Shown here: in pieces, positions 2,484 to 58,802 of the stretch
Numbering within the stretch: the stretch's first letter is position 1
Layout: every line of letters starts with the position of its first letter
From: Harmothoe impar
Lineage: Eukaryota > Annelida > Polychaeta > Phyllodocida > Polynoidae
Direction of reading: 5' to 3'
NCBI GenBank assembly: GCA_947462335.1
Contig: OX381717.1
Location: 45,675,523-45,739,522, forward strand
DNA: 64,000 nt
The notes under the pieces: generated by a model
Database searches by the model: none
What the model saw: the letters and a program-made list of their open reading frames with translations, nothing else
Told to the model about the DNA's origin: nothing
Translations under genes and position numbers: made by a program

Positions 2484-2507
2484 TACCACCACCACCGCCA
2501 CCACCAC

Positions 2508-2568: not shown

Positions 2569-2569
<1 letters not shown>

Positions 2570-2581
2570 AGACGAGACGAG

Positions 2582-37458: not shown

Positions 37459-37658
37459 NNNNNNNNNNNNNNNNNNNNNNNNNNNNNNNNNNNNNNNNNN
37501 NNNNNNNNNNNNNNNNNNNNNNNNNNNNNNNNNNNNNNNNNNNNNNNNNNNNNNNNNNNNNNNNNNNNNNNNNNNNNNNNNNNNNNNNNNNNNNNNNNNN
37601 NNNNNNNNNNNNNNNNNNNNNNNNNNNNNNNNNNNNNNNNNNNNNNNNNNNNNNNNNN
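37459..37658. other. Assembly gap (200 N)
   Basis: Exactly 200 N, probably a fixed-size placeholder inside or next to the 599-bp array. Confidence 0.99.
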
Positions 37659-38105
37659 GTAAACAGGATAAACCCCTTTTCAAGAAGTCATGATTCCCAA
37701 CCCCCCCCCCCACACACACACACTTTAACGGGGGGGGGGGGGGACGGGTAAGGGAAAGGAGTATGCATGTTGATAGCGTGGAAATAGTCCAGAATATTCC
37801 AATATTGGTTATAGGATTTACTCAAACTCAGGGTGTGGGTTATATGCGAGGTTTTGAAGAAAATCAGACCCCAGGTGCCGGTTATAGGACTCCCTTAAGG
37901 GTGCATTCTCACCACTCGCACTTAACCACAACTAGAATAGTACTAGAATTGTGAGTGGGATACGCTTGGTGATTGTGCCACTTTAACGTCTAGGTGCTGG
38001 TTATATATATGCAAGGTTTAACGGTATATGTCTTTTGCAAGGCAATATAACTATATATTGAGGTTAAAATTGAAAGGTTGGTTTTTCATTTTGATTCAGT
38101 GCATA

Positions 38106-38312
38106 ATGGGAATAGAGAGAGGACGAGCCACCCCTTCGACCAAACACAAAGCAGGAGAAGACCCAGCTGAGCAACTCAAGTGCACTCCATCTGAGAACGT
38201 AGACCCAAGTCAACAAGACGAACCAGAGTGTCACTGCAAGTGCGAGCAAGAAGATAGTGACCACGAAACCGTAGGAACTTCTCTGGATACAATCACCAGC
38301 ATAAAAATGCCT
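38106..38312 (+). CDS. BTB-BACK-PHR locus, constant exon 1 (N-terminal 69 residues)
   Basis: Starts at an ATG with A at -3 and G at +4 (MGIERGRATPSTKHKAGEDP), encodes 69 hydrophilic residues with a Cys/His patch (ECHCKCEQEDSDHE), and ends in phase 0 at a consensus donor CCT|GTGAGT (38313). It joins in frame to the exon at 39125. No domain is recognised. Its assignment to the BTB gene rests on matching phase, position and donor quality. The preceding 37659-38105 contains no supported gene; an upstream untranslated exon is possible. Confidence 0.6.
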
Positions 38313-38713
38313 GTGAGTAAAATTAATTAATAAACGTGATTTAAAATACCAGTTTTATAAACAGACACACACATACGTATGAGAGAGAGAGATGATTAAT
38401 ACAACAGCAAGGTTTGCTTCATGAATATATATAATTGCTGTGAAAATATCTACTCACCAATTCTATGTCAAAGTCAGGATCAAATCTCAGAAATCGATCT
38501 TCTTAAAAATGGGCCAGGTTGTGCATTAATACCTTTAAATACTTGAGTTACTATCTCCTGCAGTTAATCGCATTCCATGTAATGTAGCTTATGATAGTGG
38601 CTTGAATAAGGGCACCTGCGCTTTATAATATCAATGGTACTATTCACCTTGCGCTTTAATAGGCAAGGCATGCACTTATTCAAGATTCAAAAATGGCCTA
38701 AATTTTCATTTCA

Positions 38714-39015
38714 ATTCATTTTTTAACAACAGGGGGGGGGGGGTGGTGGATTTAGGGGGGGGGGGGGTAAAAAATTTGGACCCCTTGACCGGGGGGGGTA
38801 AAAAATTTAGACCCCTCTTGGGGGGGGGGGGTCAATAAAATTCAACCTGTTTTGAGGGAAAAAGCCCGCGCGTTACTATGCTACAAAGGGGCGCGATTTT
38901 CGGCCTGCCGGGGGGGGGGGGGTAAAAACTTTCGACCCCTCTAAGGGGGGGGGGGGTGAAAAAAATTAGCGAAATCTCATCCCCCCCCCCTGTTGTTAAA
39001 AAATGAGTACTCCCT
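38714..39015. mobile_element. G/C-tract MITE-like repeat, copy 3 (in intron 1)
   Basis: Inverted ends CATTTTTTAACAACAGGGGG and CCCCCTGTTGTTAAAAAATG, core AAAAGCCCGCGCGTTACTAT, several G12+ runs. Confidence 0.75.
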
Positions 39016-39124
39016 TGGTCAAGACTTGCGCTTTTTAGAACACTACTGTATTATACAGTATTTGATTTAAAACCCAAGGAAGTACCAGTACTTGCAATTA
39101 AAAAGTGGGCTCTGCCTATTCCAG

Positions 39125-39381
39125 GTCATCAAAATGGAGCATAAGGATTGGCAGCTTAAGAAAGATCTTGTGGCTTGTGCATCGTATATGCTGAAGGAAG
39201 AAATTAATACAGACGTAAGCTTCAGCATTGGTAAAGAGGGCACTCTCATCAAGGCTCACAAGTTCATTCTCGCCATGCGAAGCCCCGTCTTCGAGAGTAT
39301 GTTCTTTGGAACGTTCCCTGAAGCTCAGGATCCCATTCCTATTCCCGACGTGGAACCAGCAGCCTTCAGAAACTTGTTAGC
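39125..39381 (+). CDS. BTB-BACK-PHR locus, constant exon 2 (first half of BTB domain)
   Basis: Acceptor TATTCCAG|GTC and donor GC|GTAAGT bound an 85-codon exon that continues phase 0 from exon 1 (VIKMEHKDWQLKKDL). It encodes the first half of a BTB/POZ domain of the BTBD3/BTBD6 type: TDVSFSIG ... IKAHKFILAMRSPVFESMFF ... IPDVEPAAFRNLLA. BTB domains dimerise and bind Cullin-3. The exon stops exactly where BTBD6-type proteins continue with a YMYSD-like strand, found at the start of all four downstream terminal exons. This is the only copy of this exon in the window. If exon 1 is not used, translation could start at the internal ATG at 39134. Confidence 0.9.
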
Positions 39382-40354
39382 GTAAGTATGCATTAAATAT
39401 GATTAAGCCCATTATTGCACTGTGCCCTTCTGTTGTTGAACAAGGGCACCCCTGTGCCAGGTTCTTATACGACAGGTATTTTTGTGATTTTTTTCCCAAA
39501 AAATCCCTTGCCTTTTGTGTCTTATTTTGCTGTGAAAAAACGAAAACGAAGGTAAGGCAGTTGTTTACACAGAGAACAATGGAAAAAGACAAAAAAAATC
39601 ATCAGGGCGACCTGTTGACAAAAGCTGAAATTCTTTATTTCTGAAACATATGAAGAGCAGTACAGATGCCCTCAGTCAGGCGTCAAGCCAACGAAGGACC
39701 GGCGATCCTCGGCCAGCGGCCACTATTTTGATCAGTTTACACGAGGATAAAATTCATCCACACTCAATCTGGAAGACGCTAGACTGCCCTGGTTCACATG
39801 TGATATCAATCACATATACCATTCATTAGGATTAATGAATGTAGTCCTGGAAAGTAAATTTGCCTGTGCTGCATTCATATATTATGCTGACCAAAAGGAG
39901 TTGATACAAGGAGAGGGCTTTTACCTATCTAATTAAAGGAAACATCCCAACATCCATGGCCTAATTTTTAGACGTTTCCAAGCTGGTGGATTACATGAAA
40001 GGTATTATGATGGTATTCATTCACTGTGTATTCTTTTTCCAATTTCCGGAAGACTAGATAAAATTATGGTTTAAAACAAAGTCAATCTGTGCAAAGACCT
40101 GCTATATTTTTATATACCGAGAACCAGCGAGATAGCCAGAGCCCACTTGGTATTCAGATACTGCTGGAGTAGTCAACACTTTACTGACCAAAACATAACC
40201 AATTTACACATAACTCAGTCCAGTGCAGTCTGCTCAACCACAGTAGTGCAACTGGACATTGAACTACCCAAAAAACACAAATGAGTCCACAAGAAGTTGA
40301 ATATGAATGCATGGCTGCATATAAATGCATAACTGCAATTCGCTTTGGTTTCAG

Positions 40355-41540
40355 GTATATGTATTCCGACAATACTGATGTCCCATTGGAAGAGTCCTTC
40401 TCAACATTGTATGCTGCTAGAAAGTACATGGTGCCTGATATGGAAGATGCTGCTAGAAAATGCCTGATTGAGGACCTCAATGTTAATAACCTGTGGCACC
40501 TGTGGGAGGTTTGCACCTCCTGTTTGCAATGGGAGGAAGAAGAGCTTCGGTCTGCTTGTGAGACCTTTCTGCTAGGTGGCGATGCCAAAAGAGTTGTGAC
40601 TGCACTGAACCTGGAATATTTCTCTGAAGTGCCTCAAGGTTTATTACTAGACGTTCTTAAATTACACTGCCCTGGGGACCGCTGGAGCTATGATGGTGCA
40701 GAGTGGAAATGGCAGGGTGTTAAAGTACCCATGGAAGAATCTGAGTTGCTTTGTCTAAGGCCTAAGGGTAAAAGCCCACTTTATGTATCTGATCATGAGC
40801 TCTTCAAGGCCTGCAACAAATGGGCGTCTGCCCAGTGCCTCCGACGGGAAATCGAGCCATCTGGGACCAACAAAAGGAAGGTGCTTGGTGACTGTCTTCA
40901 GTACATTCAGTTCCTGTTAATGCTGCCCTCGGACATTGCCAACGTAGTGTCTCCCTCAGAGATCCTTACCAATAAGGAGTTAACAAGTCTTTATGTGCAT
41001 CTTCTACCTAGCTCCGGGAACAGTGTGAATTTAAAACCTGGAACTGAAAGTCTCCTGGTTTGGATTAACGTCACTCCACCAAGTGATCACCACACTTCTC
41101 CAGATCATACATGCACAAATTTGCTTATCATCAACAGTACATTCAGATTGCTCCTATCAACGATATGGATCACTGGCTCTGTTGGACCTAAATGCTACAT
41201 ACCCAGCACTCTAAGGGTATCAGTGGAAGCTGAAGGCACCGAAACAGCATGGTCAACGTATGTTAAAACAAAGCAACAAGATCGCTACTTTGATGACGAG
41301 GCATGCCCGCTGGGATATGTGTCCTTTGAGCCTATGCTTCTAAAAGAAAAGTGCCAGTATGTCATTCAGGTGCAACATGTACGGGCTTCAGGCGATGTTA
41401 TCAAGTATGCTAAGGCAGGCCAGCGTGGAAAACTATTGCCACATGCAAAAATATTTCCCCATTCAGCCAGAGGTCTATCACTCACCATAGACGGGTCCAG
41501 TAACAGCTGTATCAATGCTATTTCGGTATCATTTGTGTGA
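40355..41540 (+). CDS. BTB-BACK-PHR terminal exon A
   Basis: Acceptor GGTTTCAG|G; the first base completes the split Ala codon of the constant exon (GC|G), then YMYSDNTDV. It encodes the second half of BTB (~1-60), BACK (~60-170, with KWASAQCLRR and NKRKVLGDCLQYIQF) and a C-terminal PHR beta-sandwich (~230-394, LLVWINV ... GYVSFEPMLLKEKCQYVIQVQ ... INAISVSFV, stop). BTB-BACK-PHR proteins (BTBD1/2/3/6) are Cullin-3 ubiquitin-ligase adaptors, with PHR as the likely substrate module. Joined to both constant exons it gives a 549-aa protein, the family's usual size. The intron 39382-40354 shows nothing notable. An AATAAA lies at 42156. Confidence 0.92.
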
Positions 41541-42000
41541 AATGAACTAAATAGCTAGCAAATGAAGGAGTTACTATTAATAGGTCAAGTACAGTACCTA
41601 ACTGTAAATGCTCTCTTTTGTAACACTTTCCAAGACGATCAAAAATATCAATGGTGGTCCTAGCGGAATACTATAATACAGTTTATAACACGACTTGCTA
41701 CGATCTAGCCAACACATTAAAATCAGAGCTGCTCTCTGATTGGATGAAAGTCCGTGATGGGCACTATTGGCCAATCAGGGACGTTCACAGCTACTGCGGG
41801 ATGAGTGGCTAGACACTCTTGTATATCTAGATGGATATACTACGGCCAGCAGATTGGACTTATTCAGTCAACAAGTTGCCATTTCATGTAGTTATGAATG
41901 GATGTCGTCTGGGGGGAAATCACCTTGCATTTCTCTACAGATCCATGTATGTTTGATTTTAGATAATTAAAATATAATTATATTACTGTGTCATAACGTG

Positions 42001-42150
42001 AATAGGGCACTTGTACATCGACATGGGTGTCATCTAGACTGGATAGAGACATCTTGGAAGGCTCAGAGGATGGCGCAGCCATCTGCTGAGCCTTCCTCGA
42101 CGTCTCTATCCAGTCTAGATGACACCCATGTCGATGTACCGTGCCCTATT
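42001..42150. repeat. Near-perfect 150-bp hairpin
   Basis: Outer arms of ~50 bp (AATAGGGCAC-TTG-TACATCGACATGGGTGTC ... at the left, its complement ending CCGTGCCCTATT at the right) are almost perfectly paired, with an inner GAAGGCTCAG/CTGAGCCTTC stem and a small loop. It lies in the 3' part of terminal exon A's transcript just before AATAAA. Palindromic MITE or small-RNA hairpin. Confidence 0.85.
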
Positions 42151-42155
42151 CCCTA

Positions 42156-42161
42156 AATAAA
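42156..42161 (+). terminator. Polyadenylation signal after terminal exon A
   Basis: AATAAA about 615 bases after the stop codon. The rest of 42162-43490 shows no supported gene; another AATAAA is near 43226. Confidence 0.45.
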
Positions 42162-43490
42162 AAGTATATTATACTTGTAGAGACACAAGAGATTTCCCAG
42201 TGGAGTATCCATATATACTGTCAAAAATGACTGAAGGCGACCTACACTGACAATGGCCCACAGGGGTAACTAGTAGATTACTTCAATGCAAAGTCTATAC
42301 TCTAGGCAGCAGTGTTATAAATACCCTCCACAGGTAATTTACTATGATGCCTAGCCATTGAACTAAAGAGAAAACTGAATTTCCCCACGGACAGTAATAT
42401 GGCACATGTATGTGTACCTGTATTTTTTCTTGTACATTGAGATATTTTACCTAGGGCCAATATTCAGTGGGCCTGATCTCCCATACAGTCCAAAGGAGGA
42501 AGATTCCTAGGGATTCTTTTACTTTGACATGCTGTAATGTGTAGTGATTCCTGGTGTTGATACCCTCTCATGTCTCCCACTGTCCTTCCCTCTGAAACTC
42601 TCATAACAATGTAACCTACCAGGGCCTACAATGTCTCTGAACCTACCTAACAAAGTACCAACAAAATGTATATCCTTGTACCATATTATGTCTCTGCAGA
42701 GGGCAAATTGAAATAGATTTTCCTGAAAATAACATTTTTTGAGTAATCGAGAACTTTGTTACTGAATCTCCATAAAGATAAAGCCATACTATATGGTGGT
42801 CGACCACACTAATCACACAGCAATATAGTACTACCACATTGATCACAGATATGAAGTACTGCCCCGTTGATCATGGTAGTAAGTGCTCAAATTGTTTTCG
42901 ATAACACTGTTAGTGTAGCTAGTCAAACATTGTGCATGTACTTGTCATGTTGTTATACTTGGTTTGTTTCCTTTACCTGTGTTAGTTCGAAAGATGTGTT
43001 GATTTTATCAGCTCAATTTTTATATGCTATGAGTTTGTATTGTGATATCAAGTTAAATTTAGAGCATGCACATCTATGTCATCAGCTAGCCAATTTAGGA
43101 AGGCCTGAAGTAAATATCGAGTCATGTATTCCTGGGTCCAAAGATAACTCAAAAACTGAGAGGACATTTAATTTGCACCTTCATAGATTGACAACGAGCT
43201 GAACCTGTACCTTTTCCTAGATCCAATAAAAACTGTTTTTAATCTCAAATTTGAGAACACTGGGCTCTTTTCCTTTCTTTATATCTGTTACATATGTTTC
43301 AATTTAGATATTGTTTTAATACAAATTACTACCTCTCATGAATTTGAGATGAGTAGATGTATTGAATTTCTGTCAGCTACAACTGAAGGAAGGGTTTCAC
43401 AACTGAATTAAAGCTGCAAATACATTGAGCCAGTGATACTGCCATCTGTGAGTGTGATGCATGTTTATAGCTAGTTAATTTTCTTTGCAG

Positions 43491-44664
43491 GTTTATGTAC
43501 TCTGACAGGACTGATATGATGTTAGAAGATGCCCTACAGACCATGTATTTAGCTGACAAATACATGGCACCTCTTCTCAGAGAAGCTGCCCTGAAACGCA
43601 TAATTGATAACCTGGATGATAATAACATATGGGAAGCCTACTCTGAAAGTATAAAGTGGGATGATGCAACACTATGCCTGGCTTGTGAGAAATACTTGTT
43701 ACAAGATGCCGAAAACCTCACAAGTGCTTTCAATTCATCTTACTTTCTTGGATTAACAAAGGATGTCCTTTTGCAGGTCCTAACGTTGCACAATCCTGAG
43801 CAGCTATGGATCTTTAACAATAATGAGTGGGTCAAAAAGGCATGTGACTCAGAAAATGAGTTGGAAGTCCTACACTATGAAGCGACTGGAAAACCTGTGT
43901 TCTACATATCTGAAGTTGAACTATTCAAAGTCTGCAATGCATGGGCTATCGCAGAGTGTGAACGGCAGAAAATATACCCATTTGGACCAAACAAGAGAGA
44001 AGCTCTAGGTGACTGCCTGAATCACATCCAGTTTCCCATCATGTTGCCTACCGACATATCTACTGTGGTGACACCATCAGGCATCCTGAAACAAGATGAA
44101 ATTAATGCCCTATATCAAAAACTCCTCCCAGACCCAAAGGCTACTTCAAGATGTCTAGCTGGTGGCCGAAAGCTATTGGTACAGCTCGATACTGATAATT
44201 TTCATTCTCCTGGAAGTGCTGTCCCCAAAAGTAGGATCTGTATTGAAAGTCCATTCAGGCTGCAGCTATCAAAATTATGGCTAACAAGTGGCGTAGATAT
44301 CACCAGAGAAGTCCAGGTCTCCATTGTTGACTTGAGCAGTGGAACAACATGGTTGAAAGTGATCCCGCCAGTACAGCAAGATGATTTCTGTGGCGATGCC
44401 CAGTCAGCTCTTCTGTATGTACAATTTGAGCCTGTCATCCTTAAAGAGAAATCAAAGTATAGAGTCGAAGTACAACATTCCCATGAAAAGCGAACATTAG
44501 GAGAACTCCTTGTCAGGAGCTATTTCCGAGGGGGCAGACCGAGAACTGTCAGAATTGGCCGTCACTGCATCGACCTGGCTCATACAACACAAGACCTGTC
44601 AGTCGAGGCGTGTTGTCACGGCTGTAATTATTGCATTGCTGCCATGACCTTAGCCTTCGTGTAG
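43491..44664 (+). CDS. BTB-BACK-PHR terminal exon B
   Basis: Acceptor TTTCTTTGCAG|G, same phase as exon A, then FMYSDRTDMMLEDALQTMYL. It carries BTB second half, BACK (WAIAECERQ, NKREALGDCLNHIQF) and PHR (LLVQLDT ... LYVQFEPVILKEKSKYRVEVQ ... CIAAMTLAFV, stop), 390 aa after the split codon. It is the most diverged of the four terminal exons, mainly in the PHR half, with a Cys/His-rich end (EACCHGCNYC). No first-half BTB exon lies between 41541 and 43490, so it needs the exons at 38106 and 39125 (giving 545 aa) or is a 5'-truncated paralogue. The open frame argues for constraint. Confidence 0.88.
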
Positions 44665-45425
44665 ACAGGAGCTGTGGCACATATGTCTCATAGCTGTCAT
44701 ATCAGATGGAGAACTGATATTTATAGCTACCCATAACTACATGTATAACCATAGCTGACAATTGAACTACACTGTGAAAAAACTGAGCATCAGCCAAGCT
44801 CCTGATAATTATAGCCTCACCTATACTTTCCAGACCCAAGCAGTTAAAAGACAGTCTGCCCTGCTGTACTCTTTCATCACTGCAAGACAGTCAGCCATGG
44901 TTAGACTCTGGATGCAGAGTCCTGCATTGCCAGACTCTATTGAAGTCTGGCAATACCGAACCAGCTTTTGAGCTGGCTCTGGAACCAGTGTTGTTTTGGT
45001 GACATAGTCTCTCTGACACTCACATTTTTCAAGTATTCAGCAGAGTTGTTCCCATGTCCTGCTTTTCCTCATACAGATTCAAGACTATTTGCAACATGTT
45101 TCTGTAAGACCAGAGTTTTGTGCTCCTGCCTAGTATTATGCAGTGAGGGTAAATCTAACAAAGATAAACAACATTGAACAGTGTACAATCATCTGAATCT
45201 ATGTGGAATTCCAAATATATCTAGTGATATTGATAGCTTGGCGACACATTATTACAAGAACTCGGACTAAGAGTGTGAAAATGTTTAAAAGCAATGATAC
45301 CGGTATATAAAATGTATTTTAGCGATAGAGACATCGCATTCCTGGGATATCACATTACAGACATTGATATGTTGTATGATGATGATTTGAGGTTGCTGAG
45401 TTTTTCTCTAGGTTTGGTTTGGTTC

Positions 45426-45431
45426 AATAAA
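45426..45431 (+). terminator. Polyadenylation signal usable by terminal exon B
   Basis: AATAAA in TTCAATAAAACT, ~760 bases after exon B's stop. The equivalent in the second duplication unit is changed to AATGAA. Confidence 0.35.
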
Positions 45432-45803
45432 ACTAACTTCGAAAAGCTGGTCTCAACATATCAGTTACTGAAGAAGTTGGAAGAATTCACTTGAAGCCTC
45501 TTCTGGTTCTAAAATTAACACCACAGAGTGCTACAAAATGTAGAACATTGAAATTGTACTGTACTTTGCATGTCAGGTGAATTGAACTTGTTATTTTACT
45601 GATACTTATGATCCCCCTCCCCATTCTTTTAAACTGAAGTTGCACGTGCATAGCACCTCACATCTGTTCCCCCGTTAGTATCATGACCTTCATTTGTCAC
45701 TGCACACTATTTCTCAGGGATGTAGGGCTGTTTTGTTTGATATCCGAAATTCTGATATCGTATTCTCTGTTCTCTAACAGCAAAACAGTATGTATACATG
45801 TCT

Positions 45804-46045
45804 TAAGGGAGTGGTTATTCTTTAACCACAGGGGCGGGGGGCTGGTGGATTTGGGGGGGGGGCAAAAAGATTTGGACGCCTTGAAGGGGGCACCTAAAGA
45901 ATTGCACCCCTTTTTAGTGAAAACGCCCGTATGTTACTATAGCTCAAAGGGGTCGGCTGCACTTAATTTTAACCTGGTGGGGGGGGGGGGAACTAAAAGA
46001 ATTTCGACCCGCTTGCACCAAAATCCACCCCTTCCTGTTACTAAA
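45804..46045. mobile_element. G/C-tract MITE-like repeat, copy 4
   Basis: Starts TTAAGGGAGTGGTTATTCTT then TAACCACAGGGG, core AAAACGCCCGTATGTTACTA, ends in CCCCTTCCTGTTACTAAAAC. Shared with copy 5 in the other duplication unit. Confidence 0.65.
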
Positions 46046-46131
46046 ACATTACCAATCTCTCATATCTAAACTCATGAAAGCTGTTTATGGTAAGAGCCAG
46101 TATCCTGCCACACGCCCATTGATGGATGTGA

Positions 46132-46446
46132 GGCCACCTTTTTTTGATAACTTGGATTACGGGCTTTTGGCTCTGAATTTTTGGTAGGGCAGAGGCAAAA
46201 AAAAAAAAAAAAAGCTGCCCTACGGGGGACACCAGATCACAAAATTTCCCGAAGGGCAGAGGCAAAAAAAAAAGAAAAAAAAAAGGCATGGAAAATCTCA
46301 TTTCTGGGCAATCTAATGAAGATATATTGAGAATTATCCCCAATCTGAAATGCCTCATTCTACCTTTTTCTGCTCAACATGTACTTTTCTTTTTTTTTTT
46401 GGTAAAATTCGGATCCGTAATCCAAGTTATCAAAATAAAAACGGCC
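46132..46446. mobile_element. MITE insertion with empty site in the paralogous unit
   Basis: Terminal inverted repeats GGCCACCTTTTTTTGATAAC ... and complement GGCCGTTTTTATTTTGATAA, both continuing CTTGGATTACGG, flanked by TGA (46129-46131 and 46447-46449). The duplicate at 55420-55440 reads GATGGATGTGAACAAG with no insert, so it inserted in unit 1 only. Confidence 0.85.
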
Positions 46447-46684
46447 TGAACAAGATTTCTAAATTTATAAGGAGTGAATCCATTCCAAGCAGTCAGGATA
46501 GATGTACTGACTGGTGTGGAATAAGGAAACTAGAGAAACACCTTGCATGTGGCTACCAGAGGTAGTATAGATATTAGTATTACAAGAGCAACCATCACTT
46601 GATTGGTATTGTTGTAAACAATCAATTTATATGCTTCTACAGACTCAGCCTCCTCAAGATTATGTTTTCTGTTTTTCTCTCCAG

Positions 46685-47855
46685 ATTTGTGTACACTGAT
46701 GACGCAGACGTATTAGTAGAAGAATTCTTCTCAACGCTGTACGTGGCTAAAAAGTATGTGTTGCCAGACCTGGAAGACTTAGTCCGGAATGGCCTGATTG
46801 AAAATCTTGACATAGACAACTTATGGGAAGCTTACACCTACTGTTTGCATTGGGAGGACAAAGAGCTTCATTCTGCTTGTGAAGAATATTTCCTTGGAGA
46901 TGCAAGAAGCACTGTGGCTGCACTGAACTGGAATTCTTTCTCTGAAGTGCCCAAAAGTGTAGTACTGGAAGTTCTTAAATTACACTGCCCTGGGAACTAC
47001 TGGGAGTATGTTGATACTGCATGGAAATGGCAAGGTTCTGAAACTAGAACAGAGGTATCTGAGGTACTGTGTCTGAGGCCTGATGGAAAACGTGTACTTT
47101 ATATTTCAGATGTCAAACTATTTAAGGTGTGTGACAAATGGGCGTCCGCTGAGTGCCTGCGACAGAAATTTGAACCATCTGGGCCCAACAAAAGGAAGGT
47201 GCTCGGTGACTGTCTTCAGTACATCCAGTTCCCGTTAATGCTGCCCTCAGACATCGCCAACGTAGTGTCTCCATCAGGGATCCTGACAAAGGAAGAGATA
47301 ACAAGTCTTTATGCTCATCTCTTAGTTGTCCCTGAAAGTGCTCCTGAATTCAAAGTAGGAAGTCAACTGCTTCTTCTTTACTGTCCTGCTTCACCTTCAG
47401 AGGATCACTTCAATTCAGAATTTGATGAGTGTGAAAGTGCACTTGGTATCCAAAGCATGTTTCCATTGCTCCTATCTAAGATCTGGTTCACTGGTTCTGG
47501 AGGGTGTATGTACTATATACCTAAAGTTCTAAAGATCACTGTCCAAGATATGTCTGCTGGTATGAAATGGGTCAGGTTAATTGAAACAAAGCTACAAGAT
47601 CGCTTCCTCGATGAGAAAGGTTGCCCTCTGGGGTATGTGGCAATTGAGCCTATGCTTCTCAAGGAAAGGACCCTGTATGCCATAAAAGTGAAGCATTCAG
47701 TTATCAAAGATGATGCTATCCAGTATGGCTTTCCTGTACAAAGTGAAGAAAGCCCACTTTCACATTTGGCACATTCAGAGAGAGACCTTTCCATCAGATT
47801 AATAACTGACAAGTGGAACAACTGCATTGCTGCATTGTCGGTTTCATTTGTGTAA
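46685..47855 (+). CDS. BTB-BACK-PHR terminal exon C
   Basis: Acceptor TTTTTCTCTCCAG|A; the first base completes Ala (GC|A), then FVYTDDADVLVEEFFSTLYV. 389 aa with BTB second half, BACK (KWASAECLRQ, NKRKVLGDCLQYIQF) and PHR (LLLLYCP ... GYVAIEPMLLKERTLYAIKVK ... CIAALSVSFV, stop). Close to exon A throughout BACK, different in PHR. No first-half BTB exon lies upstream between 44665 and 46684. It is in duplication unit 1 and has an almost identical twin at 55654. AATAAA at 48654. Confidence 0.9.
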
Positions 47856-48653
47856 TTGACTTTGTCCTTCCTCACAACAGTGCTGGTGATTTTTTGAGTG
47901 AGAATGCTGACATTTTTTCTTCCCCTCGGCATTTGGAGTCATATAGGATTTTCTCACACCTAAAACAGGTGGCATATTTCTCTTAGAGGAGTACAATTTC
48001 ATTTGGTCTGCCTCTCGAGAGGGCAAACCTTTTTTTGGGCTTCCCAATGCAACTTCACAAACTCCACATCCTGATGTTCGGAAATGGCCACTCTCTTACC
48101 CAGTACTGATCTTTATTGATTGTGCTACATCGCAAAAATTTCTCTTACCAAAACAATGTGTGTGCTAGTAATTTAAACAATCAATATTTTGCCTTAAAAC
48201 TATATGCAAGCAATGCGATATGCAAGCAATTTTATTATTTAATTCATATTGAACAATACATGCTATCCGATACTGAGGGGAGGGAAATCTTAAACGTAGA
48301 TGGAGGCAGTCAAGAAATTAGAACGATGCCCCTACAAGGTCAAAATTAATTTTGAATTGAAAAATGTTTTTTAACTAAATTTTGTGGTGCTTGTCATACC
48401 TCGTTATGTATACTTTATTCATGACTTTAACTTTGATACCATGTGTCATTTCTAGCCAGTAGCTAATCACTTGTTATGGACACTATTTCCTAGCACAGTT
48501 TCCTGAAGACAACATCATTGTCTTTAAGAAATGTACCCATTACTCAATTTAGCACCATAACAAACTTGAGAAGTCCTGTCTTACAATGTCACTTAATTCA
48601 AAGACGATTGTGGGATCGATCATTCAACCGCGTTTGTTGTGTCTCATGTACAA

Positions 48654-48659
48654 AATAAA
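48654..48659 (+). terminator. Polyadenylation signal after terminal exon C
   Basis: AATAAA in GTACAAAATAAAATGTG, ~800 bases after the stop and conserved at 57623 after exon D. The 3' region 47856-48650 is well conserved between the two units but has no other gene. Confidence 0.5.
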
Positions 48660-48879
48660 ATGTGTGAAAAAGAGATTTGGTTCTGACTTGTTTTCTTTTC
48701 GTTTTTTAGCCTGATAAGAGATTTTTTTAAACTGTATATGGGAGACAGATGGATATTGACATGTTCACTGTGCATTTGTCATAACTCCAAAATCAATTCT
48801 TGTAAATACCAACAAAAGGCGAAACATTTACTATCAGAGTGTGGGCTGTCCAATATACATTTGGCTGTCCCAATCAAGA

Positions 48880-49587
48880 TTAACCCTTCCGTGCCCAGAA
48901 CTCCAAAAATGCGCGGTTTTAGCACTATCTGTATTATGCACATCACCCTGACTCCCATGTTCATCGGATTATGATGATTTTTATAGCATGTAAAGTGTGA
49001 TAACATCAGCTTTTCAATGATACCAAATATGCTATACTGACATTAATGGTTCGATCATACAACAAATAAATACCTCAGAAAATGTTTTAAAAAGGGCATT
49101 AAAAGGCCCTATCAATGTGCGGTCTGGCCATAGGGGACAGATGAATTACAGATATTTACAGAAATATTGATAAAAATAGTAAAAAAATTGATAAAAATAT
49201 GTTTTAATAGTTTTTCCTGTGGATTTAAATGATAATGTCTATATGCTTCTATTTTCCATAGCTCTTAATTAATTTGGAACAACAAAAGAACGTTTACCAA
49301 GCCCAAATAGGTTGTTCCCAACTAAAAGAGACCTCATAGTGACCTCATAATGACATTGTCGACCTTATAGTGACCACAATGTAAATCAACGAAAAGAAAA
49401 AAAGGTTTCTAGTCGCCATGGTTACCCAAATTAGAATGTTCTCTCAAGTAGTAATGAATGGCATATTGCAATAGCATCCTATGAGTATGATATGAAGCAG
49501 CAAAATTTATTTAATTGTTACACAACCTTCAAATGATGAGGTAAATATATGGCATTCTTCAAATGGTTCTGGGCACGAAAGGGTTAA
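48880..49587. mobile_element. piggyBac-like MITE, unit 1
   Basis: Bounded by TTAA with inverted ends TTAACCCTTCCGTGCCCAGA and complement TTAACCCTTTCGTGCCCAGA. TTAA targets and CCCTTTxxTGCC ends are typical of piggyBac relatives. No transposase. Present at the same place in unit 2, so older than the duplication. Confidence 0.75.
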
Positions 49588-49646
49588 GGGCCAATCTGGT
49601 TTTCAGAGAATGCATTGTTCCACGTTATACTAGTGGTCTATAATAT

Positions 49647-49826
49647 TTAATCCTTTCAGGCCGACCGAAATTAATATTTTGCTGGTGGTGTGGGCGAGAT
49701 GTTTAGCAAAAACGTTCTCTAAAGGCCGAGCCTATGCTAAATCCCGTTGAGTTATGATGACTATAGGCTAAGCTCGGCCAGCCACGGCCTCAACTATAGT
49801 CGATGCTCGGCCCTAAAGGGTTTTAA
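49647..49826. mobile_element. Second TTAA-bounded MITE, unit 1
   Basis: TTAATCCTTTCAGGCCGA at the left against complement TTAAAACCCTTTAGGGCCGA at the right, with an inner inverted GGCCGAGC / GCTCGGCC. Also in unit 2. Confidence 0.5.
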
Positions 49827-50099
49827 TTGTCAAAATTTATTGCGAGACCCTCTCTGATAATAATGTACAAACAATTATTTTCTTGCCGTAAATATTCATT
49901 ATTTATTCAAACAAAGTACAGTGCATTTCAAATGGTGAATTAATGCCTTATTCCAAGAACACAGAAAAGGAAAGGAGTCCCTGTTGTGCCCCGTATTGTC
50001 CACAGGCTACAAAGTGTCTACATCACATTATGTCCACAGCCTTCGATTACAAAGTGTCCACTAAATACAGTTTGTCCACCTCCTTCCATTACAAAGTTC

Positions 50100-50440
50100 A
50101 TTATATACAGTTCGTCCACACTCAACATCACAGAGTGTCTAAACTGCACACTTTGTCCACACAAAAGCATCACAAAATGTCCACATTGCACACTTGGTCC
50201 ATACAAAAGCAGCACAAAGTGTCCACACTGCACACTTGGTCCATACAAAAGCATCACAAAGTGTCCACACTGCACACTTGGTCCATACAAAAGCGTCACA
50301 AAGTGCCCACACTGCACACTTTGTCCACAGAAAAGCATCACAAAGTGTCCACACTGCACACTTGGTCCATACAAAAGCATCACAAAGTGTCCATACTGCA
50401 CACTTTGTCCACAGAAAAGCATCACAAAGTGTCCACAGAG
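50100..50440. repeat. 42-bp minisatellite
   Basis: About eight units of CATACAAAAGCATCACAAAG then TGTCCACACTGCACACTTGG. The phase-neutral 42-bp period keeps several frames open, creating false ORFs on both strands. Only about two units survive in the other duplication unit. Confidence 0.9.
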
Positions 50441-51628
50441 ATGACTGTGTGGAGACATACTGTGATGTGGACACTTTGCATCATGTGGACAATATGGGGC
50501 ACAACAGTCACCCTTCAGAGGTAACCAGACTTTTAGGAGTTACCAGTGTTGGTAAGCCTTGATTTCCTTAAAAGAAGGGATCAGACAAAGCTGGAATTTG
50601 AGACCTGTCTGACCTTTTAAAAGCTTGTCAGGCTAGTTAAATGGACCCTTTTTCCTCTCTCTGTTAAATATATTCAACCAAATAGCAAGCTATAGTTATC
50701 ATTATCATGGTTGTCCCATGGTTTGGGTTAGAAAATACAGGAATATACATTTTTTCAAGTAAGCAAAATTGTTAGGCTCCCATTATAGTAATTATATCCT
50801 CTACACTATGATAACCCCACAAAATCTACAGATGATAATTATATCAAATTACAATAACCACACTGTCGGGTTCAAGCACTGGGATTCTGATAACCACTGG
50901 CCTTGTATAAGGAAGCGGTCATTTTTTTAACAATGGGGGGGGGGGGGGGGGGGTATTTCAACCCCCTGACCTTAGTCGGTGACTCCATACCATGTAAACT
51001 CGTGGAAACAGATATAATTATCTCATTAAGGTCACCGAGGTCATTTTCGCCATCAAAATCAAGGAGAAGCAGTTGGGGTTTCACAATTGTGACCCGACCT
51101 CAGAAAACCAGCCTTCGGGGGGATTTTTAGTTCTGGGTTTGGCCACTATAGGGGGTGTCAGAATGGTAAAATAGTGGAAAATAGAACAAAAAATGCTTTA
51201 AGGTAATTTTTTATGGAGAATACAGAAGTCTCCTGAGAAATATTCCATTTTCGGTGCAAACATTCTATATTTGGAATGTAATTGGAACGTTTTCTATGGG
51301 AAATTGGCATATATGCCACTTTCTGGCTGCCATGGAAATCACTCCTTTGTCCTATATGGAACATCTTGGTCCTCATCTCTTGGAAATTACATCAGTTACT
51401 CAAAACTGAAAACAGACCTTGAAAATTCCCCCTAGAACCAAATCTACACTATAAAGTCCCACTTTTTTCAGTTACATTTCAATAAATCTGATTTTTCTAT
51501 CTATTTCAGTGTTTATAATGGGATACAGTGCATTTAGAGCTTATTCATCATTTTCAGTTTCACACAACGACTCATGCATGAGATATCAGCCCTGCAAGAC
51601 TACTAGTAATATCTTAACACATGATATC
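50441..51628. other. Non-coding DNA downstream of the LDLa gene
   Basis: No gene. A G17-class run at 50936-50953 after TTTTTTTAACAAT may be a truncated G/C-tract MITE. The stretch up to ~51005 is missing from unit 2. Confidence 0.45.
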
Positions 51629-53226
51629 TCATTTTAAAGATATTGCCACAAACTTTGATGATGACTTTAGATATCCCTTTTCACTGGCCTGGTCACAATT
51701 GAGTTCATCAGATTCATCCCCACAATCATTATCATTATCACAAACATAACGGCTAGGTATACATTTCCCATTGGTGCATTGGAATTGGTCTTCAGTGCAA
51801 GTTACTGCTGGGCAATCAACTTCATCGGAATTATCCCCACAATCATTGTCACCGTCACAAACGTAGCTCTTTCGGATGCATTTGGCAATATTCTCACATC
51901 TGTACTGATCATCCTGACAAGTTACATGTGAACAGTTTCTCTCATCTGAGAAATCATTACAATCATTATCGCCATCACATACATAGCTTGCTGAGACACA
52001 GTTGTCATTCATACAGTGGAACTGATCATTTCTACAGAGGCTACTTGGCGTAGTCATCACACAGTCTTGTTCATCAGATTCATCCCCACAATCATTATCA
52101 TTATCACAAACATAATGGCTAGGTATACATCTCCCATTGGTGCATTGGAATTGGTATTCAGTGCAAGTCACTGCTGGGCAATTAACTTCATCAGAATTAT
52201 CCCCACAGTCATTGTCACCATCGCAAATGTAGCTCCCCCGGATGCATTTGGCAACATTCTGACATCGGTACTGATCATCCCTGCAAGTTACATGTGAGCA
52301 GTTTCTCTCATCTGAGAAATCATTACAATCATTATCGCCATCACATACAAAGCTTGCGGAGACACAGTTGTCATTCAGACAGTGGAACTGATCTTCTCCA
52401 CAAAGTCCACTTGATGTTTTATTCCAACAGTTAAGTTCATCAGATTCATCCCCACAATCATTGTCACCATCACAAATATAGGTCCCCCGGATGCATTTGG
52501 CTACATTCTCACATCTGTACTGATCATCCCTGCAAGTTACATGTGAACAGTTTCTCTCATCTGAGAAATCATTACAATCATTATCACCATTACATTCAAG
52601 GCTTGCGGAGACACAGTTGCCGTTCGAGCAGGTGAACTCCCCTTCACTACATATCTTTGTAGAACAGAACATTTCATCACTCCAGTCTCCACAATCGTCA
52701 TAACCATTACAAAACATGCTGGATTCTATGCAGTTCATATTCAGACATTGAACTTTACCATCGCTGCATTGACAGCCATATTCATCGCTATTATCACTGC
52801 ATTCGTTTGTACCGTTGCATCTACTATCCTTACTAACACACTTTCCTGTACCACAGTTGAACTCTTCTACTTCACATTGAGTGCTGCAGAAGCGTTCATC
52901 AGAAGCATCCCCACAGTCATCAATACCATTACAGACTGCCGATATCTGTATACACTTCTTGTTCAAACACATAACCCCATTATCCTCACATGGACACCCT
53001 AACTCATCTGTCCCATCCTCACAGTCATGCTTGCCATCACAGTATGATTCAGCACCAACACATTCCCCGTTGAAGCATTGTAACTCGGTTAGTTTACATG
53101 ATGATGGCAGGCAGCCTTGTTCGTCGGAGCCATCAGGACAGTCCATCTTCTGGTCGCAGCGGGAGTTGAGGGGAAGGCACTTGTCTCCTGAAGCGCACTG
53201 GAACTCACTAGGGCTGCATTGTAAAG
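51629..53226 (-). CDS. LDL-receptor class A repeat protein, 13-module exon
   Basis: A minus-strand exon that begins after acceptor TATTTCACAG (exon base 53226) and runs 532 codons to a stop. It encodes thirteen consecutive LDLa modules, each with six Cys and the Ca2+-binding acidic end (for example [13 protein letters not shown]). LDLa modules are extracellular ligand-binding units. The tail after module 13 ([20 protein letters not shown]) has no membrane segment. The last exon could instead use a donor before this stop. Modules 8-10 and 11-13 are near-identical triplets, showing internal duplication. The 5' exons, including any signal peptide, are not identified; a candidate upstream exon starts at 53969. 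Confidence 0.88.
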
Positions 53227-53902
53227 CTGTGAAATACATGAAAAGAATAGGATCTAGAAGTTCTATATGATGAGTCAAGAGAGCCCTATCCCAGTGGGCA
53301 TAACACAGTGAATCCACCTTGAATTCATCATTATCATTTTGTATTTTATTCAAACCCATTTTAACTTTAAAAAATCCAGTATAAAGACAACTCTGAATTA
53401 GATACATGTTGTTATGCAATTTTTTTCTTTTTCATTGGATAAAGGGCCAATGAAGTTACTGCAAATCTTAACTTGCTTAGCCTACTGCAATGGACACAAT
53501 GGCCTTGTACTCCAGGTGGTAGCACAGTTTATTGTAGTTATAATAGATATTGAAGAATACATTCTTGGTTCTAACCTTTTACATATTTTAACCCCTGCCC
53601 TGATCAAGCTCAACCACATAGGACCCATGGCCAAGAACTCCCACCTGTCATACTGTCCCTATGTCATTACAGTACACTTTAGTTATAGACAAATCTGAAT
53701 GTACTATTCATCTTTCTCCCAATGTATAAAACACAATTCTTCAAATGAAAGGTAAAGTAGATCTGAAGGTGAGGGATATGTATACATGTAGTAGCTAATG
53801 TTGTTTATTGCTTGTTTTAATTAGAGTCATGTTGTTGAGTCATCACAAGAAAACATTGTTATCAAGCATTCATTTATCATCGTACCATTTTCTGACGATC
53901 CA

Positions 53903-53969
53903 GGCAACTGGCGAACGAGGATTTTTAGTAGATTCTGCAATTCTTGCGCACCGCCTGACATTGGCTTTG
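53903..53969 (-). CDS. Possible upstream exon of the 13-module LDLa gene
   Basis: Follows a good acceptor (TTTTTTTTCCAG|CAAAG) and encodes KPMSGGAQELQNLLKILVRQ. The homologous bases in unit 2 are fused directly to LDLa modules in one frame. The donor is not clear, so the end given is only where homology stops. Confidence 0.35.
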
Positions 53970-55118
53970 CTGGAAAAAAAAGAGGAGAAATGTAAATAAT
54001 TAAGATTGCGTGTATCAATTTATATACTGGCGCCAGCCAGGATTATATCAAATGCCCTACACTGTTACACAACCAAAATGTAATCCAACATCGAATATCA
54101 ATATGCCAGTGTTGACCAACCTAACTGTTTTTTCTCATGATAGTGGCCATCAAGGAACATTATTATAAGAAACAGCCAAATGTTTCTCAATTTTTGTTTC
54201 ACCTTAACCTCAGCTAAATTGAAGTCTGGCAATACCCAACCAGCTTTTGAGGAAACGCCTGACTCTGGAACCAGTGTTGTTTGTGACATAGTCTCTCTGA
54301 CACTCACATTTTTCTCATTGTACATGTAGCAAAGTGGTCAGCAGAGTTGCTCCCATACATGTCCTGCTTTTCCTCATAAAGATTCAAAACTATTTGCAAC
54401 ATGTTTCTGTAAGACCAGAGTTTTGTGCTCCTGCCTAGTATTATGCAGTGAGGGTAAATTTAACAAAGATAAACAATATTGAACAGTGTACAATCATCTG
54501 AACTTATGTGGAATTCCAAATACATCTAGTGATATTGATAGCTTGGCGACACATTATGACAAGAACTCGGACTAAGAGTGTGATTTCAAGTGTTTAAACG
54601 CAATGATACCGGTACCGGTATATAAAATGTATTTTAGCGATAGAGACATTGCATTCCTGGGATATCACATTACAGACATTGATATGTTGTATGATGATGA
54701 TTTGAGGTTGCTAAGTTTTTCTCTAGGTTTGGTTTGGTTCAATGAAACTGACTTCGGAAAGCTGGTCTCAACATATCAATTACTGAAGAAGTTGGAAGAA
54801 TTTACTTGAAGCCTCTTCTGGTTCTAAAATTAACACCACAGAGTGTTACAAAATGTAGAACATTGAAATTGTACTGTACTTTGCATGTCAGGTGAATTGA
54901 ACTTGTTATTTTACTGATACTTATGATCCCCCCTCCCCATTCTTTTAAACTGAAGTTGCACGTGCATAGCACCTCACATCTGTTCCCCTGTTAGTATCAT
55001 GACCTTCATTTGTCACTGCACACTATTTCTCAGGGATGTAGGGCTTTTTTGTTTGATATCCGAAATTTAGATATCGTACTCTCTGTTCTCTAACAGCAAA
55101 ACAGTATGTATACATGTA

Positions 55119-55345
55119 TTAAGGGAGTGGTTATTCTTTAACCACAGGGGCGGGGGGGGGGGGGAAAAAGATTTGGACCCCTTGAAGGGGGCACCTAAAA
55201 AATTGCACCCCTTTTTAGTGAAAACGCCCGCACGTTACTATAGCTCAAAGGGGTCAGCTGCACTTAATATCAACCTGGCCGGGGGGGGATCAAAAGAAGT
55301 TCGACCCGCATGAACCAAAATCCACCCCTTCCTGTTGCTAAAACA
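55119..55345. mobile_element. G/C-tract MITE-like repeat, copy 5
   Basis: Counterpart of copy 4 in the second duplication unit (TTAAGGGAGTGGTTATTCTT start, core AAAACGCCCGCACGTTACTA). Confidence 0.65.
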
Positions 55346-55653
55346 TTACCAATCTCTCATATCTAAACTCATGAAAGCTGTTTATAGCGAGAGCCAGTAT
55401 CCTGCCACACGCCCAATGATGGATGTGAACAAGATTTCTAAATTTGTAAGGAGTGAATCCATTCCAAGCAGTCAGGATAGATGCACTGACTGGTGTGGAA
55501 TAAGGAAACTAGAGAAACATCTTGCATGTGGCTACCAGAGGTAGTATAGATATTAGTATTACAAGAGCAACCATCACTCGTTTGGTATTGTTACAATCAA
55601 TTTATATAATTCTATAGCCTCCTCAAGATTATGTTTTCTGTTTTTCTCTCCAG

Positions 55654-56824
55654 ATTTGTGTACACTGATGACGCAGACGTATTAGTAGAAGAATTCTTCT
55701 CAACGCTGTATGTGGCTAAAAAGTATGTGTGGCCAGACCTGGAAGACTTAGTCCGGAATGGCCTGATTGAAAATCTTGACATAGACAACTTATGGGAAGC
55801 TTACACCTACTGTTTGCATTGGGAGGACAAAGAGCTTCATTCTGCTTGTGAAGAATATTTCCTTGGAGATGCAAGAAGCACTGTGGCTGCACTGAACTGG
55901 AATTCTTTCTCTGAAGTGCCCAAAAGTGTAGTACTGGAAGTTCTTAAATTACACTGCCCTGGGAACTACTGGGAGTATGTTGATACTGCATGGAAATGGC
56001 AAGGTTCTGAAACTAGAACAGAGGTGTCTGAGGTACTGTGTCTGAGGCCTGATGGAAAACGTGTACTTTATATTTCAGATGTCAAACTATTTAAGGAGTG
56101 TGACAAATGGGCGTCCGCTGAGTGCCTGCGACAGAAATTTGAACCATCTGGGCCCAACAAAAGGAGGGTGCTCGGTGACTGTCTTCAGTACATTCAGTTC
56201 CCGTTAATGCTGCCCTCAGACATTGCCAACGTAGTGTCTCCATCAGGGATCCTGACAAAGGAAGAGATAACAAGTCTTTATGCTCATCTCTTAGTTGCCC
56301 CTGAAAGTGCTCCTGAATTCAAAGTAGGAAGTCAACTACTTCTTCTTTACTGTCCTGCTTCGCCTTCGCAGGATCACTTCAATTCAGAATTTGATGAGTG
56401 TGAAAGTGCACTTGGTATCCAAAGCATGTTTCCATTGCTCCTATCTAAGATCTGGTTCACTGGTTCTGGAGGGTGTATGTACTATATACCTAAAGTTCTA
56501 AAGATCACTGTCCAAGATATGCCTGCTGATATGAAATGGGTCAGGTTAATTGATACAAAGCTACAAGATCGCTTCCTCGATGAGAAAGGTTGCCCTCTGG
56601 GGTATGTGGCAATTGAGCCTATGCTTCTCAAGGAAAGGACCCTGTATGCCATAAAAGTGAAGCATTCAGTTATCAAAGATGATGCTATCCAGTATGGCTT
56701 TCCTGTACAAAGTGAAGAAAGCCCACTTTCACATTTGGCACATTCAGAGAGAGACCTTTCCATCAGATTAATAACTGACAAGTGGAACAACTGCATTGCT
56801 GCATTGTCGGTATCATTTGTGTAA
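55654..56824 (+). CDS. BTB-BACK-PHR terminal exon D
   Basis: Acceptor TTTTTCTCTCCAG|A, then FVYTDDADVLVEEFFSTLYV; 389 aa after the split codon, same domains and phase as exon C, from which it differs at only about a dozen residues (for example V-W-P for V-L-P near residue 26, and FKECDKW for FKVCDKW). Full-length open frame with stop. It lies ~17.6 kb from the only first-half BTB exon, with a minus-strand LDLa gene in between, so use in the same transcript would require splicing over that gene. AATAAA at 57623. Confidence 0.88.
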
Positions 56825-57622
56825 TTGACTTTGTCCTTACTCACAACAGTGCTGGTGATTTTTTGAGTGAGAATGCTGACATTTTTTCTTCCCCTCGGCA
56901 TTTGGAATCATAAAGGATTTTCTCACACCTAAAACAGGTGGCATATTTCTTTTAGAGGAGTACAATTTCCTTTGGTCTGCCTCTCGAGAGGGCAAACCTT
57001 TTTTTGGGCTTCCCAATGCAACTCCACAAACTCCACACCCTGATGCTCGGAAATGGCCACTCTCTTACCCAGTACTGATCTTTATTGATTGTGCTACATC
57101 ACAAAAATTTCTCTTACCAAAACAATGTGTGCGCTAGTAATTTAAACAATCAATATTTTGCCTTAAAACTATATGCAAGCAATGCGATATGCAAGCAATT
57201 TTATTATTTAATTCATATTGAACAATACATGCTATCCGATACTGAGGGGAGCGAAATCTTAAATATGGATGGAGGCAGTCAAGAAATTAGAACGATGCCC
57301 CTACAAGGTCAAAAATAATTTTCAATTGAAAAATGTTTTTTAACTAAATTTTGTGGTGCTTGTCATACCTCGTTATGTATACTTTATTCATGACTTTAAC
57401 TTTGATACCATGTATCATTTCTAGCCAGTAGCTAATCACTTGTTATGGACACTATTTCCTAGCACAGTTTCCTGAAGACAATATCATTGTCTTTAAGAAA
57501 TGTACCCATTACTCAATTTAGCACCATAACAAACTTGAGAAGTCCTGTCTTACAATGTCACTAAATTCAAAGACAATTGTGGGATCGATCATAGAACCAA
57601 GTTTGTTGTGTCTCCTGTACAA

Positions 57623-57628
57623 AATAAA
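57623..57628 (+). terminator. Polyadenylation signal after terminal exon D
   Basis: AATAAA, the counterpart of the signal at 48654. Confidence 0.5.
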
Positions 57629-57848
57629 ATGTGTGAAAAAGTGATTTGGTTCTGACTTGTTTTCTTTTCGTTTTTTAGCCTGATAAGAGATTTTTTTTAA
57701 ATGTATATGGGAGACAGATGGATATTAACATGTTCACTGTGCATTTGTCATAACTCCAAAATCAATTCTTGTAAATACCAACAAAAGGCGAAACATTTAC
57801 TATCAGAGTGTGGGCTGTCCAATATACATTTGGCTGTCCAAATCAAGA

Positions 57849-58563
57849 TTAACCCTTCCGTGCCCAGGACTCCAAAAATGCGTGGTTTTAGCACTATCTG
57901 TATTATGCACATCACCCTGACTCCCATGTTCATCGGATTATGATGATTTTTATAGCATGTAAAGCGTGATAACATCAGCTTTTCAATGATACCAAATATG
58001 CTATACTGACATTAATGGTTCGATCATACAACAAATAAATACCTCAGAAAATGTTTTAAAAAGGGCATTAAAAGGCCCCATCAATGCGCGGTCTGGCCAT
58101 AGGGGACAGATGAATTACAGATATTTACAGAAATATTGATAAAAATAGTGAAAAAATTGATAAAAATATGTTTAAATAGTTTTTCCTGTGGATTTAAATG
58201 ATAATGTCGATATGCTTCTATTTTCCATAGCTCTTAATTAATTTGGAACAACAAAAGAACGTTTACCAAGCCCAAATAGGTTGTTCCCAACTAAAAGAGA
58301 CCTCATAGTGACCTCATAATGACATTGTCGACCTTATAGTGACCACAATGTAAATCAACGAAAAGAAAAAAAGGTTTCTAGTCGCCATGGTTACCCAAAT
58401 TAGAATGTTCTCTCAAGTAGTAATGAATGGCATATTGCAATAGCATGCTATGAGTATGATATGAAGCATATCGCAGCAAAATTTATATAGTTTTTACACA
58501 ACCTTCAAATGATGAGGTAAATATATGGCATTCTTCAAATGGTTCTGGGCACGAAAGGGTTAA
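57849..58563. mobile_element. piggyBac-like MITE, unit 2
   Basis: TTAA-bounded counterpart of 48880-49587 with the same inverted ends. Confidence 0.75.
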
Positions 58564-58622
58564 AGGCCAATCTGGTTTTCAGAGAATGCATTGTTCCACG
58601 TTATACTAGTGGTCTATAATAT

Positions 58623-58802
58623 TTAATCCTTTCAGGCCGACCGAAATTAATATGTTGCTGGTGGTGTGGGCGAGATGTTTAGCAAAAACGTTCTCTAAAG
58701 GCCGAGCCTATGCTTAATCCCATTGAGTGATGATGACTATAGGCGAAGCTCGGCCAGCCACGGCCTCAACTATAGTCGATGCTCGGCCCTAAAGGGTTTT
58801 AA
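58623..58802. mobile_element. Second TTAA-bounded MITE, unit 2
   Basis: Counterpart of 49647-49826. Confidence 0.5.

Follow-up and report, generated by a model that had tools for sequence, protein, structure and literature searches.

Three clusters of a half-BTB start followed by tandem terminal exons in the polychaete Harmothoe impar: a putative alternative-terminal-exon locus of ubiquitin-ligase-adaptor type

The window analysed here is a stretch of 64,000 nucleotides (nt) from the genome of Harmothoe impar (Polynoidae; assembly GCA_947462335.1, 1.51 Gb in 736 contigs), positions 45675523-45739522 of contig OX381717.1, denoted C15 below. It contains a single 5' coding pair at 38106-38312 and 39125-39381 (plus strand), encoding an N-terminus and the first half of a BTB domain, followed by four intact terminal exons, A to D. 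Judged by its sequence, this is a constrained constant-plus-variable locus of the ubiquitin-ligase-adaptor type, repeated in three clusters, and its anatomy is real. Each cluster is probably one gene, in which a constant 5' part is followed by tandem alternative terminal exons, one of them joined per transcript and probably in cis. The elements of the window (cluster 3) are as follows.

38098..38105, plus strand: acceptor AG (38098-38099) and the 6 nt between it and the ATG; TTCAG, then TGCATA or TTCATA, then ATG in 3/3 clusters
38106..38312, plus strand: constant exon 1, N-terminal 69 amino acids (aa), donor GTGAGT; one copy per cluster, 3/3
39125..39381, plus strand: constant exon 2, first half of the BTB domain, donor GTAAGT, phase 2; one copy per cluster, 3/3
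40355..41540, plus strand: terminal exon A; completes the BTB domain, then BACK-like helices, a PHR-like fold and the stop
43491..44664, plus strand: terminal exon B, B-type; its relative in cluster 2 is 72% identical in aa
46685..47855, plus strand: terminal exon C, A-type
55654..56824, plus strand: terminal exon D, a near-copy of C (97.9% aa identity)

A GT follows position 39381, and an AG precedes each of 40355, 43491, 46685 and 55654. Without the stop, the spliced products comprise 549 (A), 545 (B), 544 (C) and 544 (D) aa; the exon coordinates, donor, four acceptors, phase, stops and lengths of about 544-549 aa given in an earlier note on this DNA are thus all borne out by a sequence check. 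The alanine codon that the four acceptors complete, which the note had offered as evidence, was dismissed, because GC plus any base encodes alanine; only the phase counts. An AATAAA does lie downstream of all four exons, the first at 42156..42161 (plus strand) for A and at 45426, 48654 and 57623 for B, C and D. These are 616, 762, 799 and 799 nt past the respective stops, a distance at which chance copies are common, and they are accordingly weak evidence. Since an acceptor stands 6 nt upstream of the ATG in all three clusters, exon 1 is probably preceded, at some distance, by a first exon that is untranslated, unless the acceptor is one for a leader. Rfam at gathering scores gives no match in the window.

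The same plan recurs nearby. In the region C15:45585001-45769522 (184.5 kb; tblastn covered all but the 522 bases 45675001-45675522), tblastn and a hidden Markov model search of 5973 open stretches of at least 20 aa detect each of the two 5' exons exactly three times, together with 14 terminal copies, of which 12 are full-length and 11 intact. The single 5' set that had been claimed is therefore true of the cluster, there being three sets for three clusters.

Cluster 1, C15:45634336-45634082, minus strand: exon 2
Cluster 1, minus strand: terminal copies (c1T1 to c1T7) at 45630506, 45627543 (one stop), 45620441 (partial), 45618738, 45615729, 45611598 and 45608215
Cluster 2, C15:45655334-45655080, minus strand: exon 2
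Cluster 2, minus strand: terminal copies (c2T1 to c2T3) at 45654874, about 45653270 (broken) and 45650188
Cluster 3, plus strand: the window, with clusters 1 and 2 upstream on the opposite strand

The three clusters lie within 125 kb on both strands and have an identical phase, and the exon 2 proteins of clusters 1 and 2 are 92% and 87% identical to that of the window. The 10-kb stretches flanking the 184.5-kb region contain no further member at E 0.001. Genome-wide DNA searches, in which the B-type exons were not sought, give just three matches beyond this part of C15, one of 113 bases on a second contig (C2) and two, of 59 and 80 bases, on C15 itself at 6.1 and 6.4 Mb; with exon 2 as the query there are three close copies and two short distant matches. 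A search of public genomes and metagenomes with the terminal A protein returned one match, with 37% identity over 47% of the query. The partial copy c1T3 (C15:45620441-45620069, first full codon at 45620441), which lies outside the window and loses its frame early, is 99% identical to the adjacent c1T4 over 284 bases, mostly 5' of the exon. It is a recent broken duplication, and the array therefore still turns over.

As donors and phases are interchangeable, the distal terminal exons could instead belong to separate transcripts that are trans-spliced to the start, possibly between clusters, as in the Drosophila gene mod(mdg4). The occurrence of clusters on both strands within a short distance, in the same phase and with similar exon 2 proteins, would suit such a route, as would the acceptor close to the ATG in every cluster; trans-splicing is documented for mod(mdg4) (PMC4528330, PMC4667647) and for one lola isoform (PMC4528330). 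However, the terminal exons of each cluster are all downstream of their own start on the same strand, and the full-length ones each have an acceptor, so that choice in cis suffices and is the simplest route. We consider trans-splicing unlikely here.

The joint lies within the BTB domain. Exon 2 alone matches the Pfam BTB model with E 1.1e-13, and the match improves across the junction to 1.4e-21, 2.7e-21 and 4.3e-20 in spliced A, B and C, in agreement with the proposal that the terminal exons supply the second BTB half. The best match in the PDB for the BTB domain of A is human BTBD6. Residues F-P-E of exon 2 align with M-E-E of SPOP and L-A-E of BTBD6, a position that we take to be the Cul3-contact phi-X-E motif.

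The remainder of the terminal exon had been labelled BACK and PHR. Pfam was run on 10 of the 12 full-length copies (c1T2 and c1T5 were left out) and on spliced A, B and C; PHR was detected in none of these, BACK was found in one of the ten exons (E 0.016) and in none of the spliced products, and no zinc finger was found in the ten at E up to 1. A structural model of terminal exon A contains BACK-like helices, at low confidence, and fold comparison of this model places the PHR domain of human BTBD2 among the top three matches. The PHR label is thus kept, as PHR-like, because of the fold comparison and not because of Pfam, and the variable part, as modelled, is one that ends in a PHR-like fold. 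In BTB-BACK-PHR proteins, the PHR domain is expected to serve as the substrate module (PMC1257465), and for this reason the variable part is read as governing target choice. SCRG1 and other Pfam matches, with E 0.05-0.22, were taken as chance.

Purifying selection acts on the terminal exons, which lack a start themselves. Pairwise ratios of nonsynonymous to synonymous divergence (dN/dS) were calculated by the NG86 method for the 66 pairs of the 12 full-length copies, with stop codons skipped. The ratio is 0.20-0.48 in the 46 pairs with defined dS, while dS is saturated in the other 20, all of them A-type against B-type; apart from C/D, the defined dS values range from 0.53 to 1.56. B and its cluster 2 relative differ by dN 0.166 and dS 0.615, a dN/dS of 0.27 with a nonsynonymous deficit at P 8e-15. 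Maximum-likelihood (ML) omega values (IQ-TREE) for the 12 copies are 0.42 for the whole exon, 0.35 for the second BTB half, 0.34 for the BACK part and 0.47 for the C-terminal part; for the 10 A-type copies they are 0.45, 0.34, 0.38 and 0.50. The observation that BACK is more alike than the C-terminal part thus holds (0.34 against 0.47 in the 12 copies), and average omega, at 0.34-0.50 across these eight runs (12 or 10 copies; whole exon or three parts), does not indicate positive selection.

These values also bear on whether the distal exons are used at all. Only the first terminal exon of each cluster might be in use, the remainder being copies that have not yet decayed: 3 of the 14 copies are indeed decayed, and C and D are recent (dS 0.03). 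Yet the copies other than C/D are constrained in spite of dS values of 0.53 and above, and a B-type exon has been kept in two clusters at a dN/dS of 0.27, which makes this explanation very improbable. Alternatively, B, C and D could be separate genes with 5' exons of their own that are not BTB-like, or could encode truncated proteins. Each of these three is a long, intact exon, and the open stretch before the acceptor includes an in-frame ATG in 6 of the 12 full-length copies, C and D among them. Such an ATG is absent from the other six, including B, and the open stretches (7-42 aa in the 12 copies) are mutually alike only in the near-copies C and D. Moreover, the second BTB half is constrained and needs a first half, and profile searches of the 184.5 kb find no BTB first half beyond the three exon 2 copies. 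The power of these searches is illustrated by a relative on C2, which the exon 2 profile of the three clusters recovers at 48% identity and 82 bits. With the C2 exon as the query, the three exon 2 copies reach 71-73 bits, whereas no other open stretch of the region scores above 8.4 bits; with a four-member profile (three clusters plus C2) the next best stretch reaches 5.3 bits. Separate genes are therefore quite unlikely, and one gene per cluster, with tandem alternative ends, continues to be the preferred reading.

The four alternative ends that had been claimed are present as four intact exons, but they are of three distinct types, with C and D being products of a recent tandem duplication. 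The duplication and the assembly gap nearby are as follows.

44939..60789, plus strand: tandem segmental duplication with C and D, in matched blocks within 44939-54221 and 54218-60789
37459..37658, no strand: assembly gap of 200 N just upstream of cluster 3; the sole true gap of the region, with none inside the three clusters

The large blocks of the duplication are 91-97% identical, with unmatched inserts interspersed, and C and D differ by 8 synonymous and 8 nonsynonymous changes (P 0.012, calculated without transition bias). The similarity of the blocks, and the 200-N join just upstream of the cluster, could suggest that part of the array, chiefly C and D, is an assembly artefact, for example two haplotypes placed in tandem. 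This is highly improbable, as the two segments contain different inserts (an LDLa gene has 13 repeats in one and 5 in the other) and clusters 1 and 2 follow the same plan with strongly diverged terminal exons. The longer LDLa reading frame lies between C and D at 51629-53431 (minus strand) and the shorter copy at 59793-60584 (minus strand); both are carried by the duplication. A short imperfect tandem array at 50120-50440, in the C copy of the duplication, has units with cacaaagtgtccacactgcacac and is shortened in the D copy. Elsewhere in the window, an open Gypsy-type retroelement polyprotein of 1387 aa, with reverse transcriptase, RNase H and integrase, occupies 26032-30195 (minus strand), and a Death-domain reading frame behind a proline tract lies at 2477-3328 (plus strand).

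In the tree of the terminal exons, B, c2T3 and the c2T2 fragment form one branch and C and D another (100/100 for both). In both cluster 2 and cluster 3 the leading terminal exon is A-type and the one after it B-type; the simplest inference is that a start with ends of both types is older than the split of these two clusters. Exon 1 is 82% identical at the nucleotide level between clusters 1 and 2, 74% between 2 and 3 and 70% between 1 and 3, while exon 2 is nearly equal in all pairs (89-90%). If clusters 1 and 2 are the closest, a B-type exon was lost from cluster 1. Cluster 1 itself needs two label changes on the tree, since c1T7 falls outside the other cluster 1 copies.

One segment of the BACK part is unusually similar among the A-type exons.

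40845..40985, plus strand: residues 164-210 of terminal exon A, with a synonymous dip and a rise in GC content at third codon positions (GC3) among A-type exons

Nine A-type copies were scanned, D being omitted as a near-copy of C and the two B-type copies being handled separately. The synonymous difference (pS) is 0.24-0.34 in two windows over A residues 166-210 and 0.45-0.66 in the remaining windows, and the lowest 40-codon window was unmatched in 1000 column permutations. At codons with an invariant amino acid, pS is 0.29 in the core, 0.63 before it and 0.50 after it. Codon identity at amino-acid-identical codons is higher in the core than elsewhere both within cluster 1 (0.81 against 0.65) and in comparisons across clusters (0.79 against 0.59); when A-type copies are compared with B-type ones it is 0.42 in core and rest alike. 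GC3 is higher in the core in 9/9 A-type copies, which are not independent of one another, and differs little between core and rest in the B-type pair (0.45 against 0.42 and 0.43). A GC3 rise was taken as a sign of gene conversion in a study of fugu protocadherins (PMC1852091), and conversion among the A-type copies may be the simplest reading of the segment. Constraint on the nucleotide sequence may instead lie behind the dip. Codon identity between B and its relative is also raised in the core (0.84 against 0.71). The C2 relative shows a mild rise, from 0.33 in the rest to 0.46 in the core when compared with A-type copies and from 0.26 to 0.35 when compared with B-type copies, which gene conversion would not predict.

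Comparison with relatives outside the clusters indicates how the arrays may have arisen.

C2:8536136-8537911: relative with one exon 2 and one terminal exon (373 codons), same intron site, phase 2
C15:6.37 Mb: relative (L031, L032) with one exon 2 and one intact terminal exon (376 codons)
C15:6.13 Mb: decayed relative (L030) with exon 2 and intron site as in the clusters, the terminal part having a stop and a frame change

The intron site is common to these three, and each of the two intact relatives has a single start with a single end; at C15:6.37 Mb no second terminal exon follows within 10 kb downstream. Because single-ended relatives share the site, an intron inside the BTB domain with a single large terminal exon would most simply be the ancestral state, from which the arrays derive. 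It is the fixed position of this intron that makes a terminal exon copyable as a module.

We propose that each transcript joins the exon 2 donor to a single terminal exon, in all likelihood in cis, and that polyadenylation follows the chosen exon. Every product would then have a common N-terminus and first BTB half, and hence, by BTB homology, an identical dimer face and a shared part of the Cullin-3 dock, while the second BTB half, BACK and PHR-like module would vary, and with them the substrates. The array would have grown from an ordinary BTBD6-like gene whose large terminal exon was copied in tandem, and been copied together with its start into three clusters, with birth, death and perhaps gene conversion since.

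Several observations weigh against this proposal. D can be reached only across a 16-kb intron that spans the opposite-strand LDLa gene, and neither blastn between clusters nor a search for complementary 9-12-mers found an intron element that would explain exon choice. With blastn (matches starting up to 2600 nt after the ATG), corresponding positions match only at exons 1 and 2 and their edges of about 20-60 nt; other matches fall at non-corresponding places and are repeat-like. The decay of 3 of the 14 copies means that membership of the array does not guarantee use, and c1T4 has no AATAAA before the next exon, although two ATTAAA occur there. The model of terminal exon A has a mean predicted local-distance-difference-test score (pLDDT) of only 54, and a comparison of profiles with PHR reached no better than E 0.22. 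On the tree, the branch of A with c2T1 (91/91) is under the tool's mark for a firm branch, and cluster 1 has no B-type exon although its exon 1 is closest to that of cluster 2, so that the history of the clusters is ambiguous. Docking of the Dscam kind was also sought in the first 600 nt of intron 2 (200 nt in cluster 2), and no exact 9-12-mer there is complementary to the 300 nt before at least two full-length terminal exons of the same cluster. Short stretches are common to the sequences before the acceptors of c1T1/T2/T5, c1T5/T6, c1T3/T4 and C/D, as expected of tandem copies.

Loci that combine constant with variable exons are known to encode surface receptors, enzymes and transcription factors. 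In the nematode and plant expansions of MATH-BTB and F-box proteins, as here, there are many ubiquitin-ligase adaptors with diversified recognition parts, but there whole genes have been multiplied and not terminal exons on one start. The MATH-BTB expansion is described in PMC1257465, and four to seven BTB-BACK-PHR proteins per animal genome are given in the same source; for five insects the number given is none to two (PMC4033408). BTBD1/2/3/6, which are BTB-BACK-PHR adaptors expected to serve Cullin-3, have the domain order predicted here, and BTBD6 is the best solved BTB relative; the locus differs from them in having many terminal modules per start, diverged beyond the Pfam PHR model. Among the matches listed from the open-licence PMC literature, there is no alternative-terminal-exon locus for ubiquitin-ligase adaptors or BTB-BACK-PHR proteins.

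The earlier note had called the locus protocadherin-like. Clustered protocadherins, UGT1 and GCNT2 are alike in having tandem constant and variable exons with birth and death, but their variable exons come first and their constant exons last (PMC1885805, for the protocadherins), the opposite of the polarity seen here. One protocadherin trait that the note did not name, the regional gene conversion with GC3 rise in fugu (PMC1852091), may have a counterpart in the BACK segment. The closest anatomy is that of Drosophila lola and mod(mdg4), where splicing, be it in cis or in trans, connects common 5' BTB exons to a 3' exon chosen from many (PMC1947980, PMC4528330, PMC4667647). At the gene level, they share with the H. 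impar locus one common BTB 5' set and several in-phase alternative 3' terminal exons; for lola two routes have been described, of which joining in cis is one. Most of their variable ends have zinc fingers (C2H2/C2HC or FLYWCH), whereas those found here are predicted to have BACK-like helices and a PHR-like fold; the joint of mod(mdg4) is outside the BTB domain and here it is inside; and, unlike either, this locus exists as three paralogous clusters. By its anatomy, the locus is accordingly of the lola/mod(mdg4) kind rather than the protocadherin kind, and the BTB-internal joint and the ubiquitin-ligase-type modules are its putative new features. What stands of the original interpretation is a constant half-BTB start and several constrained ends that complete the BTB domain only if joined to it, in three clusters; combinatorial recognition by the locus is what we infer from this.

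More tentatively, the clusters might form a modular ubiquitin-ligase repertoire, in which the one invariant half-BTB start of each cluster is spliced onto an array of recognition ends that undergoes birth and death, conversion keeps the BACK hinge alike and PHR diverges. As the dimer face would lie in the constant half, isoforms, even from different clusters, could pair as dimers of mixed specificity. Three clusters on one chromosome, with one-to-one relatives elsewhere, make the origin of the arrays traceable. If the locus is transcribed as proposed, a single exon duplication would supply a new degradation-target module without a new promoter or Cullin dock, and, should the modular repertoire be true, the clusters would be an intracellular, polarity-inverted counterpart of the clustered protocadherins.

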